This document shows positions 23,260 through 51,713 of a stretch of 64,000 nt of DNA, piece after piece. The stretch is from IMG/VR virus record IMGVR_UViG_3300043788_000169, positions 62,001 through 126,000 of that record, one strand, 5' to 3'. Positions within the stretch are counted from its first letter, which is position 1. Every line of letters begins with the position of its first letter. The stretch comes from a virus. The position numbers were made by a program, and so were the translations under genes. The notes under the pieces were generated by a model. The model saw only the letters and a program-made list of their open reading frames with translations, had not been told where the DNA came from and did not search any database.

Positions 23260-23396
23260 TCACTGTTCTCGTGGCGTGCGCGATCGGGCTGGTCCTTGCC
23301 GGGGGCATCTTCTGGTTTGCGTGGTGGACGACTGAGCCGCTTCGGGGCTACATGATTACCCGCGGCTGGCCGGCCGACCGGGTGCGCCGCCCGTGA
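23256..23396 (+). CDS. 46-residue single-pass membrane protein
   Basis: ATG overlaps the preceding TGA and the TGA overlaps the next GTG, so it is locked into the operon. One transmembrane helix (VLVACAIGLVLAGGIFWFAW) with a short basic tail. Too short for family assignment. Confidence 0.7.
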   Translation: MITVLVACAIGLVLAGGIFWFAWWTTEPLRGYMITRGWPADRVRRP

Positions 23397-23653
23397 AGGT
23401 CATCGACATCAGCTGGCACGAGCGGGCCCGCTGCAAGGATGCCGACCCCGATCTGTTCTTCACCAAGACTGGCAAGCATGCGGATGAGGCCAAGGCCCTG
23501 TGCCGCGCCTGCCCGGTCCGGACGCCGTGCCTGGAGGAAGCCCTGAAGCTGTCTTCCACGCGCGACTACGGGATCAGGGGCGGGCTGTCGCAGAGAGAGC
23601 GGCAGGCAATAAGAAAGGCCCGGCGCGCGGCCGAGACCAGACTCTCAGCTTAA
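23393..23653 (+). CDS. WhiB-family iron-sulfur transcription factor
   Basis: 86 residues, GTG start overlapping the previous stop. The four cysteines that ligate the [4Fe-4S] cluster are present at about 14, 37, 40 and 46 (CRACPVRTPC), followed by the G[VI]WGG-type turn, here GIRGG (60-64), and a basic AT-hook-like C-terminus (QRERQAIRKARRA). The usual Trp of the turn is replaced by Arg. Wbl proteins bind the primary sigma factor and modulate promoters; phage copies such as mycobacteriophage TM4 WhiB act on host genes and superinfection. It could act at the palindromic promoters of this window, which is conjecture. Confidence 0.92.
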   Translation: MKVIDISWHERARCKDADPDLFFTKTGKHADEAKALCRACPVRTPCLEEALKLSSTRDYGIRGGLSQRERQAIRKARRAAETRLSA

Positions 23654-41025: not shown

Positions 41026-41068
41026 GTCCTGTGCCTCCGTTTGGTGGGCTGGTTGGGTTGTGCATGCT

Positions 41069-41099
41069 CAGACTCCCAATGCAGTAGACACGTGTCTAC
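41069..41099 (-). promoter_or_regulatory. Palindromic promoter N (perfect palindrome)
   Basis: GTAGACACGTGTCTAC at 41084-41099 is a perfect 16-bp palindrome, so both arms give TAGACA rather than TTGACA. On minus the -10 is weak (GAGTCT or AGTCTG at about 41075-41069). Leader AGCCCACCAAACGGAGG follows. Confidence 0.72.
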
Positions 41100-41148
41100 C
41101 CGTTAAGCCTCTATTGTTATCAACCTGTGACCTGCCCAAATGATCAGC

Positions 41149-41240
41149 CTCCGTTTAGCGCCAGGCGCCTGGCCAGCCACGACTCACCATCCGCCGGCTA
41201 GCCCGGTACTCAATTAGATGGGCACAGCCTCCGTTTAGCT
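41149..41240 (-). other. Two orphan copies of the conserved leader
   Basis: The minus strand carries GCTAAACGGAGGCTG twice, ending near 41149 and 41226, with no gene in phase behind either and no palindrome upstream. They look like remnants of deleted promoter-leader-gene cassettes. Confidence 0.55.
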
Positions 41241-41580
41241 CCCCCGTTCTCACACCCCGATAGTCCCACCCAATGAGACACCCCCCGCGCCGCAGCTCAG
41301 CTCACGCCGCAGCCATGCCGCACAGCTCCCCGTGCGCCGCGCTCAGCTCCCCCCACAGCCACGCTCAGCCCCTGCCCTGTGTCAGGACATGGCCAGCCAC
41401 GCACAGACGCTCTCAGCCCCGCGGGCGCACAGCTCAGCTCCCCGCGCCCGTCCGTCCGGCTCCCCCTGCCGCCGGCTAGGCGTGCGCCCCCGCCGCGGCC
41501 GCCCCCCGTCGTGCGGCGCACGCGGGTTAGGAGTCCCGTTCCTCCGCCCCCGCACTGACCGGCGCCTTCCATTAACAGAT
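41241..41580. other. Gene-poor stretch rich in CAGCTC repeats
   Basis: No ORF with a plausible start. Short words such as CACAGCTC, CTCAGCTCC and GCTCAGCTCCCC recur several times between 41286 and 41445. Could be low-complexity spacer or a binding array; the sequence alone does not decide. Confidence 0.4.
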
Positions 41581-41584
41581 GCAC

Positions 41585-41815
41585 CCGCGACGTCACAGCA
41601 CATCACCCGTCCCCGCGGGATGCAGGGTTTGATGACCGGGGGAAGTGATTGTGATGTGTGATGGAGCCCCCTGACCTGTGATAAGACCAGGAAAGGTGGT
41701 CACTGTGATGTGGCGGGTCACAGTACCCCCCAGATGATGTCACATGCCGCTGACCTGGGCGCATCACTATCTTGTGATGGGGGACATCACAGCCGCCGCC
41801 GGGTGGTGTGATCTG
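41585..41815. promoter_or_regulatory. Cluster of GTGAT/ATCAC and TCACA elements
   Basis: About ten GTGAT or ATCAC and three GTCACA words fall within 230 bases, several paired as inverted repeats; the clearest is TGTGAT (41773-41778), 7 bases, ATCACA (41786-41791). Such density suggests operators for one dimeric regulator or iterons of a replication origin. It lies upstream of the 41952 operon in the largest gene-poor gap of the window. Confidence 0.5.
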
Positions 41816-41951
41816 GCGCCTGGCCGGTAATAATGGCAGGGCGTGCCCCAGGGAGCCTGCGGAACGATGATCAGCGTCCCCGTTCCGGCAAACCAGGACC
41901 GTTACCCCCTGGGGCCGCCCCGCCAGGCGAAACGGAAGGCGGAGAAGTCCC

Positions 41952-42568: not shown

Positions 42569-43145
42569 GCGGCGCCGCAGGAGGTTCCAGGCGGGCTGGC
42601 TGAGCTGGGCGGTGCCGGTGGCCGGGGGTGTGTGGATCTGGACGTCCCTGCACGATCCTGGACGCCAAGCGGGCATGTGGACGATCGAGGGCGCCGCGGT
42701 GCTGGCGTGGCCGCTGGCGCTGACCGCGGTGTTCTACGTGCTGCCCGCGACTGCGATGTCTGTGGTGCCCAGAGGGCTGCGCAGGTGGTGGCGCAGGGGC
42801 TACACCGTGCGGCCTGCGATTCCTGGCTTTATCCGCCGGGCTGTGATGTCTGCCGACTCTCACAGGTGCGTGCACTGCGGGCAGTGGGTGGATCTGCAGC
42901 TCGACCACGTCTTCCCCTGGAGCCTCGGCGGCCTGAGCGTGCTGTTTAACCTGATGGTGCTGTGCGGGACCTGCAACCGGGTCAAGTCCAACTACTGGCG
43001 CTTCCGCTCGGGCCATGAGATCTACCGGGCGTTCGACAACGCCGGCAACATCCGGATGGCACGGGAGATCCTGAGGTCGGAGAAGCTGGCGAGGATCAGC
43101 CCGCTGCGGTGGTACCGCGCGGCGCTGGCCCTGGGGGTGATCTAG
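42561..43145 (+). CDS. Membrane-anchored HNH endonuclease-like protein
   Basis: 194 residues from GTG 42561, overlapping the previous gene by eight bases. A basic start (ARRRRRRFQAG) and two hydrophobic helices (WLSWAVPVAGGVWIW and AAVLAWPLALTAVFYVLPAT) precede an HNH fold at about 100-150: CVHCGQWVDLQLDHVFPWSL with LCGTCNRVKSNYW. The DHVFPWSxGG...N..LC..CN pattern is diagnostic for HNH nucleases. The nuclease half should face the cytoplasm. Confidence 0.85.
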   Translation: MARRRRRRFQAGWLSWAVPVAGGVWIWTSLHDPGRQAGMWTIEGAAVLAWPLALTAVFYVLPATAMSVVPRGLRRWWRRGYTVRPAIPGFIRRAVMSADSHRCVHCGQWVDLQLDHVFPWSLGGLSVLFNLMVLCGTCNRVKSNYWRFRSGHEIYRAFDNAGNIRMAREILRSEKLARISPLRWYRAALALGVI

Positions 43146-43765: not shown

Positions 43766-43798
43766 TCTGGCCAGCTCAGCGGTGTGACATCACTGCTG
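43757..43798. terminator. Bidirectional hairpin between convergent operons
   Basis: Perfect 10-bp inverted repeat CAGCAGTGAT / ATCACTGCTG with a 22-base loop, overlapping the 3' ends of both convergent genes. Confidence 0.6.
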
Positions 43799-45823
43799 GG
43801 GCGGAGGCGGCGTCTTCGGGTACCAGCGGCCGTTCTTGCTGGCGATCAGCTCAGCGTCGCGGTCCTTGCCCAGCTCACGCTGGATGTGCGCGCGGTCGAC
43901 CCCGATCCCTTCTTTCTTGAGGATCGTGAAGATCTCGCTGGTCGCGATGCCCAGCAGCGCGCGCTCGGCAATCAGCGCGTAGGCGCGCAGCTTCCACGCC
44001 GGGGCGTTGCCCTGCGGGGTGTATCCCTGGGCGAAGGTGGACAGGTCGGCCAGGGTGTCGCCCATCATCTCCTGGAACTCCGCCAGCTGCGCACGCCTCT
44101 GTTCCTCGCGGTCGATCACCGCGGTGGCTGCGGTGGTGCGAGCCGGGGTGGCCGGGGGCTCGGGAGCCAGGCTCTGGAACAGCTCGGAGCGCGTCCACCG
44201 CTCGGTGTAGTCGCTGCCCAGCACCGCGAGGTCGGCCGCGTCAAAGACTGGCCGTATGACCGAGCAGCGGGCCGCGATCCGGTCGACCTTCGCGCGGTCC
44301 TCGGGGTGCTCGTCGCCTGGGTCGAGCCGGAAGAACTTCCACACCTTCAGCTTCCGGTCACGGTCGCCCATCCGCCAGATGAGTCCGGTGCCGACGTGGG
44401 CCAGGCGGGAGATCGCCTTGGCCGCCGGGTCGGAGTCCGGCACCGCAGAGCGCGCGTCCATCTCCGTCATCTGGCCGAGGGTTATCCTCAGCCCGCACTG
44501 GCTCTTGAGGTCGCCGGACCCGGCCTGGGAAACGGTTGGCCGCTGTGTGGTCCAGATTGGGTCGATGGCCGAGGGCCGGCCTTTCCGGGTGATGTCGTTG
44601 GCCCAGGCGACCATCTGGACGTTGGAGACGCCGGCCAGCTGCTGCTTCTCGCGCGGGGCGTCGAGCATGAAAATGTCAGCCACCTCGTCGCCCAGAACCA
44701 TCACGGCCGGCTTGGCCCGGGACGGCACGAGCTTGGTCCGGCGCATGCTGGCGTTCTCCTCCCGGCGCCCCATCACGAGCCGGTCGGCTGCCTTGAACAT
44801 CAGGTACGCCTCTTCGCGGGTGGTGGCCACCCAGTCGATGCACGGGCGCAGGCCCTTGCCCCCGTTGTTGAGTACCTCGTCGTTGATCCATGGCTGGATC
44901 CAGGGGCCCGACAGGGAGCCGCCGCCGAGGTCGACACACCAGACGATGACGTCTTCGCATGCGGAGAACTGGGCGATCAGGACGTTGAGAAGATTGCTCT
45001 TGCCCCAGCCTCGCAGGCCGGTCAGGAACGTCGCTACCTCGCGGAACAGGAGGCGGCCCAGCTCACCGATGGCTGCCATGCCGACCGGGATGGGCTTGGT
45101 GATGGTGAGGACTTCGTCGTGCTCGGGGAACGGCACGGTCTCCGCAAAGATGTCTTCCTCGTTGAGGGTCATGATGGCTTCGCCACCATGCTTGCCTCCC
45201 TCGAAGGTGATCGCCCCCGGGTCCATCTTCAGCGGGATGCAGAGCTTCTCCACACAGGACCGCAGGGTGTTCAGGGTGACCGAGCCGTCCGTCGGTAGGC
45301 GCAGGTACACGATGCGGTTGCCCCGGGATTCCTCGATCAGGGTGACCTGGATGTTCGTCAGGCCGATCCGGGTGAAGGCCGCGATGATCTTGCGCCGTGC
45401 CGCCGCTGCGGCGAACGTTGCCACGCGCTCGCTTGCCTGGCGGCTTTCCATATCGTGGCGTTCCCAGACTAGGCCGCCGGCGACAATCACCGCCCCGACA
45501 ACCGCGACCAGAGAAACCAACGCCGGCCAGTGCCACACGCCGGTCAGCTTCGCATACACCAGCCACCCCGGAACAGTGACCGCGACCGCCAGGGAGCAAA
45601 TGACGACCGAGGAGGACTTCGACCGGATCGAGATCCCGGTCGCAATTGAGACGGAGAGCACGAGCGCGAGCGCCCCTGCCGGGAACGCGTGGATCTTGGT
45701 GAGAGCGAACAGGAACAGGGCCACGCCCACAGCCAGCCCGGTCTCGATCATGTGCGTCCACACATGACGAGGTGCCGGGTCAAGGGACTTCGCCGGGACG
45801 GGCTGGCTGCGGGTCGTGGTCAT
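43790..45823 (-). CDS. TraB/FtsK-like DNA translocase
   Basis: 677 residues. N-terminal hydrophobic segments (residues about 25-120: TGLAVGVALFLFALTKIHAF, ALVLSVSIATGISI, LVSLVAVVGAVIVAGG) anchor the protein in the membrane. The motor domain has Walker A TGLRGWGKSN near 268, VIVWCVDLGGG, and Walker B AVMVLGDEVAD near 373, then IWTTQRPT. The C-terminus (YALIAERALLGIATSEIFTI, DRAHIQRELGK) looks like the winged helix that reads specific 8-mers in TraB proteins. Streptomyces TraB alone moves double-stranded plasmid DNA between hyphae. FtsK-like phage motors are the alternative, but the two upstream genes favour the conjugative reading. Confidence 0.83.
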   Translation of the reverse strand: MTTTRSQPVPAKSLDPAPRHVWTHMIETGLAVGVALFLFALTKIHAFPAGALALVLSVSIATGISIRSKSSSVVICSLAVAVTVPGWLVYAKLTGVWHWPALVSLVAVVGAVIVAGGLVWERHDMESRQASERVATFAAAAARRKIIAAFTRIGLTNIQVTLIEESRGNRIVYLRLPTDGSVTLNTLRSCVEKLCIPLKMDPGAITFEGGKHGGEAIMTLNEEDIFAETVPFPEHDEVLTITKPIPVGMAAIGELGRLLFREVATFLTGLRGWGKSNLLNVLIAQFSACEDVIVWCVDLGGGSLSGPWIQPWINDEVLNNGGKGLRPCIDWVATTREEAYLMFKAADRLVMGRREENASMRRTKLVPSRAKPAVMVLGDEVADIFMLDAPREKQQLAGVSNVQMVAWANDITRKGRPSAIDPIWTTQRPTVSQAGSGDLKSQCGLRITLGQMTEMDARSAVPDSDPAAKAISRLAHVGTGLIWRMGDRDRKLKVWKFFRLDPGDEHPEDRAKVDRIAARCSVIRPVFDAADLAVLGSDYTERWTRSELFQSLAPEPPATPARTTAATAVIDREEQRRAQLAEFQEMMGDTLADLSTFAQGYTPQGNAPAWKLRAYALIAERALLGIATSEIFTILKKEGIGVDRAHIQRELGKDRDAELIASKNGRWYPKTPPPPQQ

Positions 45824-45833
45824 TGTGTGCCTC

Positions 45834-47585
45834 CTAGCCGTTCAGCCACATGTGGTGTGCCGAGCGGTGTGTCTGGAACGCGTCGGCCGCCGCGTCCCCG
45901 GTGCTGGACAGAGCCGACGCGTACTCCCTCAGGCTTTCGATGAACGCCTGGTGGATATGCTCGTCTGTCATCCCGTCCGCCGCGGTGCGGATTGCCTTCG
46001 CGATGACGCCAGGCAGCTCGGCCATCTGCCGGGCCCAGGTGTCCAGATCGGAGCCGCTGGCCGGGTGGAACGCGGCAATGTGGTCATGGACGGCCTCCTC
46101 GACCGCCTCGATTCCTGCCATAGGGCCTCCTCTTGTTGATGGTGCTCGCTGCCTGCGCACCTGTGGCGCCTGCAGCCGTGGTGCCGGAGCGGGTGCCGGC
46201 CTCGACGTTCCCTGGGTGGGAGCTGGGGCCGGGGCTGGCGCCGCAGCGGGCTTCTGGCTCTCCCGCCTGGCGCGCTCGCGCTCTTTGCGTTCCTTCCTCA
46301 TGCGCTCGTTCCAGATCTGCTGCCAGCGGCGCCCGAGCTGGTTTCCGTAGTGCAGCCCCGGAATCCGCCGTGGCTGGACCTGCTGGGGCTCTCCCAGCCT
46401 CGGGACCGGACGCCACTGGCCCTTGCGCTGCGCCTTGCGCAGTTTGTGCCTGCGGTACAGCTGGCGAAGCCCGGCCACTGCAGCGATGGGAGCCAGCAGC
46501 TTGCTGGTCCAGCGCTTCCGTGCCTGGCTGCGCAGCTGCTTGCCCCGTGCCCTTCGCTGATTCCGGGTCTGGGTTCGCATCTGCCTGATCTGGCGCCGCA
46601 TCTGCCGGCGCTGGGCCCTGGACTGGCCGCGCAGCTGCTTGCCTCGCTGCCTGCGCAGCTGGCGGCCGTGGCCTTTGGCTCCCGGGCCCCACCGGACCTG
46701 AGGAGCCGCTGGCCGGGCCGATCCGGGGCTGTGCCGCCGGAGCCTTCCCGGAACCAGCCGGCGCAGTGTCTTGCGCGTACGCCCTGGCTTGGGCGTGGCC
46801 GTGCCCGGGGGCTTTGCCCCAGCTGGCCGCAGGCCGCGGGGACGGCTGCGCGGGCGACCGCCCGCTCCTGGCCGTCCTCCTGGCCCCCCGGTGGCCCGTC
46901 GCCGGGCTGGGATGAGCCTCCTGAGCCCACCTCGCGGCCGGCTGCTGGTGCCGGGACGGTGACCGGTACCCGGCCGTCCTCCGCCTGGACGGGATCCCGC
47001 CGGCCTGTGCGGCAGGAACCGCCGCAGACCCCGGCCGCCCGCACCGGTACCTGTGCCGGTGCGCCGTCGACCCGCGCCCGGACCAGTTCCCGTACGGCGC
47101 CTTCCGCTCCCCAGACCGCCGCCTGGGGACAGAGTGCGCCTGCGCGAGCGCCCGGACGATCCGGAAGCGCCTGACCCGGAGCGCTTGCCCCGTCCCAGGC
47201 CCAGACCGCCGCGCCCTGATCCGCCGCCGGACCGCCGGCCACCGCCCGCACCGCGCGAGCGGCCGCCAGAGCCGAGCTTGGGCAGTGCCCGCCCGCCCGA
47301 GGAGGACCGGCGGACGGACCGCCGTTCCCTGCGGGACGAGCCCGGAGGACGTGCGAAGTGCCTCCGGATACGCGGGTACTGCCAGATCCCGACTCCGCCG
47401 GCCCCGGCTGCCCCGGTCCCAGCCGCTGCCATCTCCACCGGGCCTGCGCCGAAACCGTGGACAGCTCCGACCACGGTTGCGATGCCCCCCAGCAGGTAGA
47501 GCAGCGGTCTGCGGCCCCGGACATGTCCGGGGCGCTGCTCTGGGCCTGCACGCGGCTCTTCATCGAGGGTCTCTTCATCAGCCAC
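45834..47585 (-). CDS. Arg/Gly/Pro-rich basic protein of the transfer-like module
   Basis: 583 residues. One hydrophobic segment near 30-50 (LLYLLGGIATVVGAVHG) precedes a ~330-residue low-complexity region of Arg, Gly, Ser and Pro (RSRGAGGGRRSGGGSGRGG; then QRRQMRRQIRQMRTQTRNQ). A compact C-terminal domain of ~110 residues (GIEAVEEAVHDHIAAFHPAS, YASALSSTGDAAADAFQTHR) closes it. Such extreme basicity suggests DNA or wall polymer binding. Spacing and overlap put it in one operon with the translocase and the DUF2637-like gene. Confidence 0.72.
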   Translation of the reverse strand: MADEETLDEEPRAGPEQRPGHVRGRRPLLYLLGGIATVVGAVHGFGAGPVEMAAAGTGAAGAGGVGIWQYPRIRRHFARPPGSSRRERRSVRRSSSGGRALPKLGSGGRSRGAGGGRRSGGGSGRGGLGLGRGKRSGSGASGSSGRSRRRTLSPGGGLGSGRRRTGTGPGAGRRRTGTGTGAGGRGLRRFLPHRPAGSRPGGGRPGTGHRPGTSSRPRGGLRRLIPARRRATGGPGGRPGAGGRPRSRPRGLRPAGAKPPGTATPKPGRTRKTLRRLVPGRLRRHSPGSARPAAPQVRWGPGAKGHGRQLRRQRGKQLRGQSRAQRRQMRRQIRQMRTQTRNQRRARGKQLRSQARKRWTSKLLAPIAAVAGLRQLYRRHKLRKAQRKGQWRPVPRLGEPQQVQPRRIPGLHYGNQLGRRWQQIWNERMRKERKERERARRESQKPAAAPAPAPAPTQGTSRPAPAPAPRLQAPQVRRQRAPSTRGGPMAGIEAVEEAVHDHIAAFHPASGSDLDTWARQMAELPGVIAKAIRTAADGMTDEHIHQAFIESLREYASALSSTGDAAADAFQTHRSAHHMWLNG

Positions 47586-48351
47586 TAGCCACCTCCTGTG
47601 CCATTCCTCGTGCTGCTGCCAGCACCTGCCTTGCGATGTGACGACTGCTCAGGCCGTACGCTTCGCGGAGTCCCCGCTCAGTGAAGCTCGCGCCCTTGCT
47701 GATTTCCTTGGAGATTTCTTGCACGAGCTGGCGCATCGCCGGGTCGGTGTCGAGCTTCGGCTTCGGGCCGCGCTTCGCGTGGATGTCGACCACGTTCTTC
47801 TCGTGTGGCTTCTCGGCGCGCTCGGTCACCACCGCCGGCCGCTTCGGCTTAGGCTGCCTGGCCAGCTCCTCGGCCGCCCTGGCGGTGGCCACAGCGTCCT
47901 TGACCAGGCCGAGGCCAAAGCCAAGTGCGATGGTGGCAGCGAGCGGGGCGATGGCGCTGCCAAGCTTCACGGCGACGCCGGCGTGCAGTCCATCGTGCAC
48001 AGCGTTTCCCAGGACCGACGATGCCAGAGCGCCGGTAGTCACGACCCACGCCCAGCCGCGGGTGCGCCACCGGGTGTCTCTGCGCAGGGCACACAGGAAC
48101 AGCCGCAGTTCTCCCATGGCTATGAGCCAGTCAATTATGATGGGATATCCAGCAGCCCATGCCCCGCGAAGATGAAGGTAGGTATAACCGAACTCGAACA
48201 GCCCTCGGTAGGACTCCGCAAAAGCCCAGGACGTCGCTGAAACGATAATGACAGACAGACCCCATAGAGCAATGGGGTCAGCGCGCTGAAGCGTCCTGCT
48301 CAGCCTGCCTGTCTGCGCTGCGCTGCGGATCTTTCCCATCCTGCCGGCCAT
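47578..48351 (-). CDS. DUF2637-like membrane protein with C-terminal HTH
   Basis: 257 residues from ATG 48351, seven bases after a GGAGGG site. Four membrane helices (ALWGLSVIIVSATSWAFAES, GYPIIIDWLIAMGELRLFLC, AWVVTTGALASSVLGNAVHD, APLAATIALGFGLGLVKDA) match the DUF2637 layout of proteins encoded beside traB in Streptomyces plasmids and integrative elements. The C-terminus holds a charged linker and an HTH-like end (GLREAYGLSSRHIARQVLAA). Probably part of a transfer/spread complex; regulator activity is conceivable. Confidence 0.78.
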   Translation of the reverse strand: MAGRMGKIRSAAQTGRLSRTLQRADPIALWGLSVIIVSATSWAFAESYRGLFEFGYTYLHLRGAWAAGYPIIIDWLIAMGELRLFLCALRRDTRWRTRGWAWVVTTGALASSVLGNAVHDGLHAGVAVKLGSAIAPLAATIALGFGLGLVKDAVATARAAEELARQPKPKRPAVVTERAEKPHEKNVVDIHAKRGPKPKLDTDPAMRQLVQEISKEISKGASFTERGLREAYGLSSRHIARQVLAAARGMAQEVASG

Positions 48352-50916: not shown

Positions 50917-51360
50917 ATGAACGTCGTCACGGCGCCTGACCCGCGCTCTGCGCGGCTGCCGGTCCGCAGTCTTCTGTTCATCGCCGCGCTCTGCGTGCTC
51001 GCGGTCTTCTACACGATCCACATGCGCCAGTGCCAGTCCGAGGCGTGGCGGATCATCGGCTCGCGCGACCCCACGGGCGCCTGGTACGGGTTCTGGTCGG
51101 GGCTGGGTGGCTCGCTGCCGGACATCGCGCTGTTCACCGGGGTGGCTGCGTGGTACCTGCACCACACCTGCCATATGAGCCCCTGGTGCCTTCGCTGGGG
51201 CAAGTTCGAGGCTGCCGGAGGAGTGTTCAGGCTGTGCCGTCACCATCATCCAGACATCGCCGCGCTGAAGCATCTTTCACGCCGCGACATGATTCACAAG
51301 CTGCACCGGGAGCACCTGGACCGGACCTCTCGCCGGGCACCGGCCAAGCCAAGGGCCTGA
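50917..51360 (+). CDS. Membrane protein with Cys/His cytoplasmic domain
   Basis: 147 residues. Helices at 17-36 (SLLFIAALCVLAVFYTI) and 60-85 (GGSLPDIALFTGVAAWYLHH), then a soluble region with HTCHMSPWCLRWGKFEAAG and FRLCRHHHPDI. This layout is typical of small actinophage membrane proteins carrying a CHxxxCxxxG..CRxHHPD metal motif. Function unknown. Confidence 0.72.
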   Translation: MNVVTAPDPRSARLPVRSLLFIAALCVLAVFYTIHMRQCQSEAWRIIGSRDPTGAWYGFWSGLGGSLPDIALFTGVAAWYLHHTCHMSPWCLRWGKFEAAGGVFRLCRHHHPDIAALKHLSRRDMIHKLHREHLDRTSRRAPAKPRA

Positions 51361-51713
51361 ACACCCACCACAAGGCCGCGCTCGCGACGATCTCGGCCTG
51401 CTCGGCTCTCACGATGCTGTGGGGCTGGCTGTTCTCGCTGGCTGAGCATCTGCCCGTCACCACCGGCCTGTACTGGAGCGTGATCACCGCGGCGACCGTC
51501 GGCTACGGCGACGTGATCCCGCACAACCCGCTTGGCCGGCTGATCGCCGTGGCGGCCGCCATCACCGCGATCCCGCTCTACTCGGCCAGCGTCGGCCTGT
51601 TCATCGGGGGAGTGGCCGCCCGGGTCATCCACAACGTTGTGCACGATGCCAAGACCGAAATCAAGGACCATGTCGAGGAGCGGCTGCGTCATCATCTGCA
51701 AAACCGCATGTAG
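51357..51713 (+). CDS. Two-TM potassium channel-like protein
   Basis: Hydrophobic helix (ATISACSALTMLWGWLFSLA), pore helix and filter (WSVITAATVGYGDVIPHNPL), second helix (LIAVAAAITAIPLYSASVGL), then a charged cytoplasmic helix (HDAKTEIKDHVEERLRHHLQ). TVGYGD is the canonical K+ selectivity filter and the TM-pore-TM spacing fits the Ion_trans_2/KcsA class. No ATG or GTG gives a complete first helix; CTG at 51357 overlaps the previous stop (CTGA) and is proposed as start, ATG 51414 would truncate helix 1. Sits among other membrane genes. Confidence 0.85.
   Translation: MNTHHKAALATISACSALTMLWGWLFSLAEHLPVTTGLYWSVITAATVGYGDVIPHNPLGRLIAVAAAITAIPLYSASVGLFIGGVAARVIHNVVHDAKTEIKDHVEERLRHHLQNRM

Follow-up and report, generated by a model that had tools for sequence, protein, structure and literature searches.

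We describe a conserved three-gene cassette of a large siphovirus, in which an FtsK-family membrane ATPase is combined with a very basic partner protein and a DUF2637-like membrane protein. The stretch of DNA analysed (hereafter the window) is 64,000 nucleotides long and corresponds to bases 62001–126000 of the 132,501-bp IMG/VR virus record IMGVR_UViG_3300043788_000169; the cassette lies at positions 43790–48351 of the window, on the minus strand. With somewhat less than even confidence, we propose that it is a plasmid-type double-stranded DNA (dsDNA) translocation cassette, with which this virulent-looking phage would pump its DNA across the septa of a mycelial host. FtsK-like genes were already known as single annotations in actinophages (Hiyaavirus, P1312); what appears to be new is that plasmids, phage-plasmids and phages lacking lysogeny genes share one conserved cassette, with a DUF2637 gene and a fixed partner. 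A literature search, in which few subscription journals were covered, returned no description of this cassette, and a single paper that names DUF2637, in a plant-pathogen genome. The genes of the cassette are, in order of transcription:

47578–48351, minus strand: DUF2637 membrane protein with a C-terminal helix-turn-helix (HTH), 257 amino acids (aa), gene 1 of the operon (PF10935; ATG start with GGAGGG upstream).
45834–47585, minus strand: very basic Arg/Gly/Pro-rich membrane protein, 583 aa, gene 2, the partner of the ATPase.
43790–45823, minus strand: FtsK-family membrane ATPase, 677 aa, gene 3 (PHROG, profile and fold matches; ratio of nonsynonymous to synonymous substitutions, dN/dS, approx. 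0.29).

The three open reading frames (ORFs) form a single tight operon, in which each is preceded by a GGAGG-type ribosome-binding site, the DUF2637 gene and the gene of the basic protein overlap by 8 bp, and a gap of 10 bp separates the latter from the ATPase gene. The original prediction, made from the sequence without database searches, had placed these three genes in one operon of a siphophage genome and had read them as a plasmid-transfer-like module; its observation was confirmed, with the ORFs at these positions and the DUF2637 match over the family cut-off, and its interpretation is partly supported. Selection was assessed against the operon of a 90%-identical relative, IMGVR_UViG_3300044653_000098. 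Amino-acid identities to this relative are 91% (ATPase), 79% (basic protein) and 82% (DUF2637 protein), and the corresponding dN/dS values are approx. 0.056/0.196, 0.148/0.460 and 0.101/0.329, i.e. a ratio of approx. 0.3 per gene, accompanied by an excess of third-position changes. All three genes are real and under purifying selection; given these ratios, the long antisense ORFs across the operon are not the selected genes. A search for sigma-70 promoters and terminators returned nothing usable above chance. Convergent with the ATPase gene lies a gene for a membrane-HNH endonuclease (42675–43145, plus strand; HNH families were matched in that gene group).

The ATPase clearly belongs to the FtsK superfamily, despite a score of 15.8 bits against Pfam FtsK_SpoIIIE (PF01580) that is below the cut-off of 24. 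This assignment follows from its match to PHROG_31069 (E 9.5e-33), from the comparison of the ATPase-family profile with solved structures (FtsK, 2iuu, E 1.8e-17; TcpA, E 5e-16) and from a Foldseek search with the AlphaFold2 model (best match TcpA, E 3.8e-17; FtsK motor, E 4e-16). Its features are as follows:

45467–45766, minus strand: four predicted N-terminal transmembrane helices, ATPase residues 20–119 (hydropathy and AlphaFold2).
44996–45019, minus strand: Walker A, G269 LRGWGKS276 (G269, G274 and K275 invariant in 17- and 24-sequence alignments).
44681–44710, minus strand: Walker B, P372 AVMVLGDEV381 (P372 and E380 invariant, D379 nearly invariant).
43817–43999, minus strand: C-terminal winged-helix-like domain, ATPase residues 609–669 (AlphaFold2, three helices and a beta hairpin; predicted local distance difference test score, pLDDT, of the block 83–90).

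The model, with a mean pLDDT of 73.5, consists of four N-terminal helices (20–43, 49–65, 71–94 and 99–152, of low confidence), an alpha/beta part, a RecA-type motor and a C-terminal winged helix; the motor and the winged helix mostly score 75–95 and the transmembrane part approx. 35–60. The protein has the RecA motor with Walker A and B of the FtsK/SpoIIIE type and, as predicted from hydropathy and AlphaFold2, also the N-terminal anchor and the C-terminal winged helix of this type; the four hydrophobic helices bear out the membrane anchoring proposed earlier. TcpA of the Clostridium perfringens plasmid pCW3, the best structural match, is likewise an FtsK-like conjugation motor, but no Pfam families of the remaining type IV secretion locus were found in the window phage. 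An assignment to the phage packaging ATPases, named at the outset as a finding that would speak against a transfer module, was rejected and does not apply, since a separate terminase (45% identical to that of Microbacterium phage Magritte) is present.

In motor-domain trees, the cassette ATPases formed one clade (Shimodaira–Hasegawa-like approximate likelihood ratio test support 98–99) apart from TraB, from proteins like those of actinomycete integrative and conjugative elements, and from chromosomal FtsK, and the approximately unbiased (AU) test rejected a grouping of the window ATPase with TraB (p 0.005). Judged by its sequence, the ATPase is not TraB but a member of a separate, unnamed FtsK-family clade; of the earlier label, TraB/FtsK-type, the FtsK part stands and the TraB part does not. 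The window ATPase and that of its relative occupy a long branch, the exact placement of which is uncertain. TraB of pIJ101 was rejected as a direct relative: it gave weak matches to other cassette ATPases only, and the tree separates it. The TraB/Spd modules of pIJ101 and pSVH1 resemble the window operon in having an FtsK-family membrane ATPase with a C-terminal winged helix and membrane accessory genes, but they differ in the clade of the ATPase and in gene order (traB first, as against accessory, partner and ATPase in the window), and among the pIJ101 genes compared no counterpart was found of the basic partner and its conserved C-terminal domain. On the Prauserella plasmid of locus L029 (6170–10958), two FtsK-like genes stand in tandem, one of them near chromosomal FtsK and the other on a very long branch.

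The likeness to chromosomal FtsK/SpoIIIE, which share the motor fold and the membrane anchor with the window ATPase, raises an alternative in which the translocase acts on phage concatemers, sorting them or pulling them apart, or removes host nucleoids from septa, and no DNA passes into other cells. FtsK-type pumps act at septa, and the profile of the cassette clade scores chromosomal FtsK (approx. 145 bits) above TraB (40–82 bits), both of which would fit such a role in segregation or genome processing. However, the cassette ATPases form a clade of their own, the partner and DUF2637 proteins are foreign to the chromosomal FtsK system, plasmid members of the clade lie in GntR-regulated, transfer-like operons, and packaging is served by the separate terminase; we therefore consider this role improbable.

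The second component, the basic protein, contains 21.6% Arg and Lys, 16.6% Gly and 5.0% Asp and Glu, with one transmembrane segment, and ends in a conserved domain:

45837–46121, minus strand: conserved C-terminal domain of the partner, last 95 aa, three helices (hidden Markov model, HMM; pLDDT 85).

An HMM of this domain, built without the window sequences, matched the window protein with 20.7 bits (E 3.5e-7 in a set of 18 sequences). The domain was present upstream of the ATPase in 25 of the 25 new loci found via the ATPase; two of these come from the phage's own relative and from a previously examined isolate, and one (L057) has a gap of approx. 1.2 kb between the two genes. In the reverse direction, 11 of 395 actinomycete genomes were positive for the partner domain, and all 12 distinct genes found were followed by the ATPase. 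From this two-way linkage, which goes beyond the original prediction, it follows that the basic protein is a dedicated partner of the ATPase. A fold search with the domain gave no significant match, and its sequence-profile matches were to designed helical bundles and were hence dismissed as due to chance.

The DUF2637 protein scored 26.1 bits against PF10935, above the cut-off of 22.8 (27.2 bits in the genome search), and has three to four transmembrane segments, followed by an HTH-like stretch:

47611–47682, minus strand: putative C-terminal helix-turn-helix (FTERGLREAYGLSSRHIARQVLAA), read from the sequence; architecture like that of the counterpart in plasmid locus L074.

That counterpart combines DUF2637 with a weak HTH_23 match. 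The earlier claim that DUF2637-like proteins accompany TraB held up: two small traB plasmids have the order traB, a gene of approx. 97 aa and a DUF2637-annotated protein, and on one of them, the 7-kb plasmid NZ_OX371414, where the middle gene has approx. 98 aa, the DUF2637 gene (37.5 bits, weak HTH) occupies the position that matches spdB in the traB-spdA-spdB order of pIJ101. A membrane gene of the spd type, as judged by this position, accompanies the ATPase in the window operon. SpdB of pIJ101 itself is without a Pfam match and showed no similarity to DUF2637-type genes above local-composition shuffles.

A tblastn search found relatives of the ATPase, each with 23–30% identity, on 32 plasmids and on 6 phages. 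Around them the same order recurs: a membrane protein ending in an HTH (DUF2637 in several), a protein of 520–690 aa, and the ATPase. The carriers include the plasmids pFQ12 of Frankia, pSQ10 of Nocardiopsis, pAGRA3207_2 of Actinomadura and pTH1 of Thermobifida, Streptomyces plasmids, and the phages Galactica, Spocter and P1312. The middle proteins have the C-terminal domain in common, and in some members the partner has shrunk to that domain; DUF2637 proteins precede the partner–ATPase pair on plasmids and phages alike. The plasmid cassettes (pFQ12, pSQ10, pTH1, pAGRA3207_2 and those of Streptomyces) share with the window operon the three parts, the partner domain, the ATPase clade and, on most, the gene order; they differ in being plasmid-borne, several with GntR regulators, and in ATPase sequence (20–27% identity to the phage). 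On several small plasmids the cassette is divergent from a GntR regulator, as is traB in pIJ101. Hiyaavirus phages (Galactica, Spocter, Hiyaa and Keanu) and the Thermobifida phage P1312 likewise have the partner gene followed by the FtsK-like translocase, in Hiyaavirus with a DUF2637-like membrane gene upstream; their ATPases lie on other branches of the tree, P1312 has a serine integrase, and they are unrelated to the Magritte-like lineage of the window phage. Where hosts of cassette plasmids and phages are named, they are mycelial, and all 11 genomes positive for the partner domain are 5.6–9.3 Mb in size, a figure that covers the positives only. In its content and gene order the operon is therefore homologous to cassettes on plasmids and phage-plasmids of mycelial actinobacteria, and in this sense the description as a plasmid-transfer-like module is upheld.

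Several other genes stand beside the cassettes. A DUF3307-type membrane protein accompanies them in a Hiyaavirus phage (L009, 7413–7898) and on two plasmids (L021, 3630–4076, and L027, 3824–4246), with 51% identity between L009 and L021, and is perhaps a fourth part of the cassette. On two plasmids (L025, 1061–1360, and L028, 2670–2957) WhiB genes are located upstream of the cassette, and on two others a gene annotated as 'Pycsar system effector family protein' directly follows the transfer genes (L075, 6881–7333, and L076, 6145–6879).

A constraint placing all phage ATPases in one clade was rejected (AU test, p 6e-6), and the starred branches of the tree alone require no fewer than three switches between phage and plasmid; the cassette has thus moved between these replicons at least three times. 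Such repeated exchange is also what would be expected if the window operon were a recently captured plasmid fragment of no use to the phage, and this is in line with its location in a variable block without Magritte homologues, many neighbours being absent from the close relative. Against a mere passenger speak the three genes kept intact in both phages at a dN/dS of approx. 0.3, the long, old branch of the window lineage and the recurrence of cassettes in several unrelated phage groups, and we give this explanation very little credence. Plasmids of the likely hosts commonly carry homologous cassettes, and phage and plasmid versions are intermixed in the tree, so that the phage cassette might alternatively interfere with resident conjugative plasmids, or block or dilute their transfer machinery. 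The intact, invariant Walker A and B motifs and the purifying selection suit an active pump more than a decoy, and exclusion or takeover of this kind seems to us highly improbable.

The lifestyle of the phage was inferred with the help of the relative, whose record of 141,724 bp is a colinear circular permutation of the window's record. The ends of the relative overlap by approx. 180 bp in shared sequence, and the window's record is without approx. 8.1 kb; the relative's record is probably complete and closes to a circle, which gives a phage genome of approx. 141 kb. Virion genes include TerL, portal, major capsid, Dit, a tail chaperone and a tape-measure-sized gene of 2456 aa, consistent with the siphophage proposed. 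The nearest isolate is Magritte (133 kb), with a largely similar core order and identities of 51% (portal), 50% (capsid), 45% (terminase), 39% (DnaB) and 34% (PolI). Magritte, which was isolated from the unicellular Microbacterium, gave no match to the ATPase in tblastn; the cassette sits in a 44-kb stretch (9.2–52.9 kb) between the tail and helicase genes that is nearly without Magritte homologues, and is itself retained in the close relative, from which many of its neighbours are absent. Together, the window's record and the relative define a Magritte-like lineage of approx. 141 kb, in which the 44-kb accessory block is volatile. The phage encodes PolI, DnaB, a clamp, clamp-loader proteins, a sigma factor and WhiB, and in the relative the 8.1-kb stretch codes for RecA and for a GH25 lysin.

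Neither tyrosine nor serine integrase (PF00589, PF00239), nor ParA or ParB, was found in the window's record or in the circularly complete relative, and no repressor was found in either, the 8.1-kb stretch included. The original prediction had pointed to a phage-plasmid, i.e. a phage that would also persist as an extrachromosomal prophage and, by means of the cassette, pass between hyphae without virions, in a conjugation-like manner. True phage-plasmids with the same cassette, a terminase and ParA/ParB do exist (NZ_CP109240, NZ_CP108279 and NZ_CP108469), the window phage has the structural genes of a phage (TerL, portal, capsid and tail), and the relative's record closes to a circle. However, a circular contig map is equally given by circularly permuted or terminally redundant virion DNA, the integrase, partition and repressor genes missing here are present in plasmid-living members, and Magritte, related in its core, has no annotated integrase or partition genes. 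No partition or plasmid replication genes were found, and the replication genes are of phage type, with which an RNA-type or novel replicon would still be compatible; nor is there, in either record, the integrase of an integrating temperate phage. The phage looks virulent, without sign of being a phage-plasmid, and we regard the latter as unlikely.

Other carriers vary in this respect: ParA occurs in the plasmid-living ones, a serine integrase in P1312 and G009, and a tyrosine integrase in G004, G011 and G013, whereas the integrase and partition families tested are all absent from Spocter, Galactica, G010 and G012. With carriers both with and without integrase or ParA, the cassette is not tied to lysogeny, and in the window phage, which has no lysogeny or partition genes, it is probably used in the lytic cycle. 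For such a phage in a mycelial host, movement of the genome through cross-walls would be the most economical use.

In the proposed mechanism, the ATPase would be held in the membrane by its N-terminal helices, assemble into a ring, presumably a hexamer, and pump dsDNA, with its C-terminal winged helix probably reading a loading sequence. The Arg/Gly-rich part of the membrane-anchored partner would probably coat or guide the DNA, and its conserved C-terminal domain probably docks to the ATPase, whereas the DUF2637-HTH protein may act as a DNA-binding membrane accessory in the position of SpdB. In the known systems, dsDNA is moved by TraB, and transfer within the mycelium also depends on the Spd proteins, whose genes are co-transcribed with traB (PMC12857230); in pSVH1, the integral membrane protein SpdB2 binds both DNA and TraB (PMC4170104). 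Copies of the phage genome would be moved through septal cross-walls, and perhaps also between touching hyphae, so that infection could spread within the mycelium without each compartment having to be infected separately from outside. The further idea that a virulent phage spreads its naked genome between mycelial compartments by a plasmid-type pump, taking over the hyphal network before or without the release of particles, is one we put forward as a possibility and consider doubtful.

Several points weigh against the proposed pumping of phage DNA across septa. The ATPase falls outside the TraB clade, and the DUF2637 match, at 26 bits, is distant. The tandem 8-bp array like the TraB recognition sequences (TRS) of pSVH1, which had been suggested earlier as a check, was not found at or beside the operon. 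The step of spreading through septa, in a host that is probably a mycelial actinobacterium, is drawn from analogy. In the literature we found no experimental work on any member of the cassette ATPase clade.

A candidate for a cis-acting site is present elsewhere in the window:

41593–41811, no strand assigned: noncoding cluster of 10 TGTGA/TCACA words, approx. 2 kb past the end of the operon; possibly linked to the cassette.

No other 5-mer cluster of the record is as dense (Poisson 1e-14, against at best 1e-5.7 in shuffles), and the relative keeps it with 9 copies. It may be an operator, an origin or a translocase-loading site; the word TGTGA resembles a CRP half site. The surrounding noncoding region of approx. 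0.9 kb (41026–41951), which also contains three GCCTCCGTTT repeats and AGCTCCCC repeats, is conserved in the relative and is possibly an origin or control region. The pSVH1 repeat GACCCGGA was discarded, as its 27 and 28 copies in the two genomes are scattered without a cluster at the operon, and a de novo search for clustered 8-mers returned 4-copy clusters only, mostly within coding or repetitive DNA.

Two further genes of the window were recorded. An ORF of 227 aa (51030–51713, plus strand) with the potassium-channel selectivity filter TVGYGD and an Ion_trans_2 match of 48.7 bits is a phage-encoded ion channel, and a WhiB-like regulator is encoded at 23393–23653 (plus strand; Whib match, E 1.5e-21, within that gene group).

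All these records suggest that the plasmids and the viruses of mycelial bacteria trade a DNA-transfer machine with one another. DUF2637, hitherto a family without an assigned function, gains a likely role as a membrane accessory of the spread type. Furthermore, the cassette raises the question of whether a phage may cross septa inside its host, which can be tested, as isolated phages with the cassette exist.

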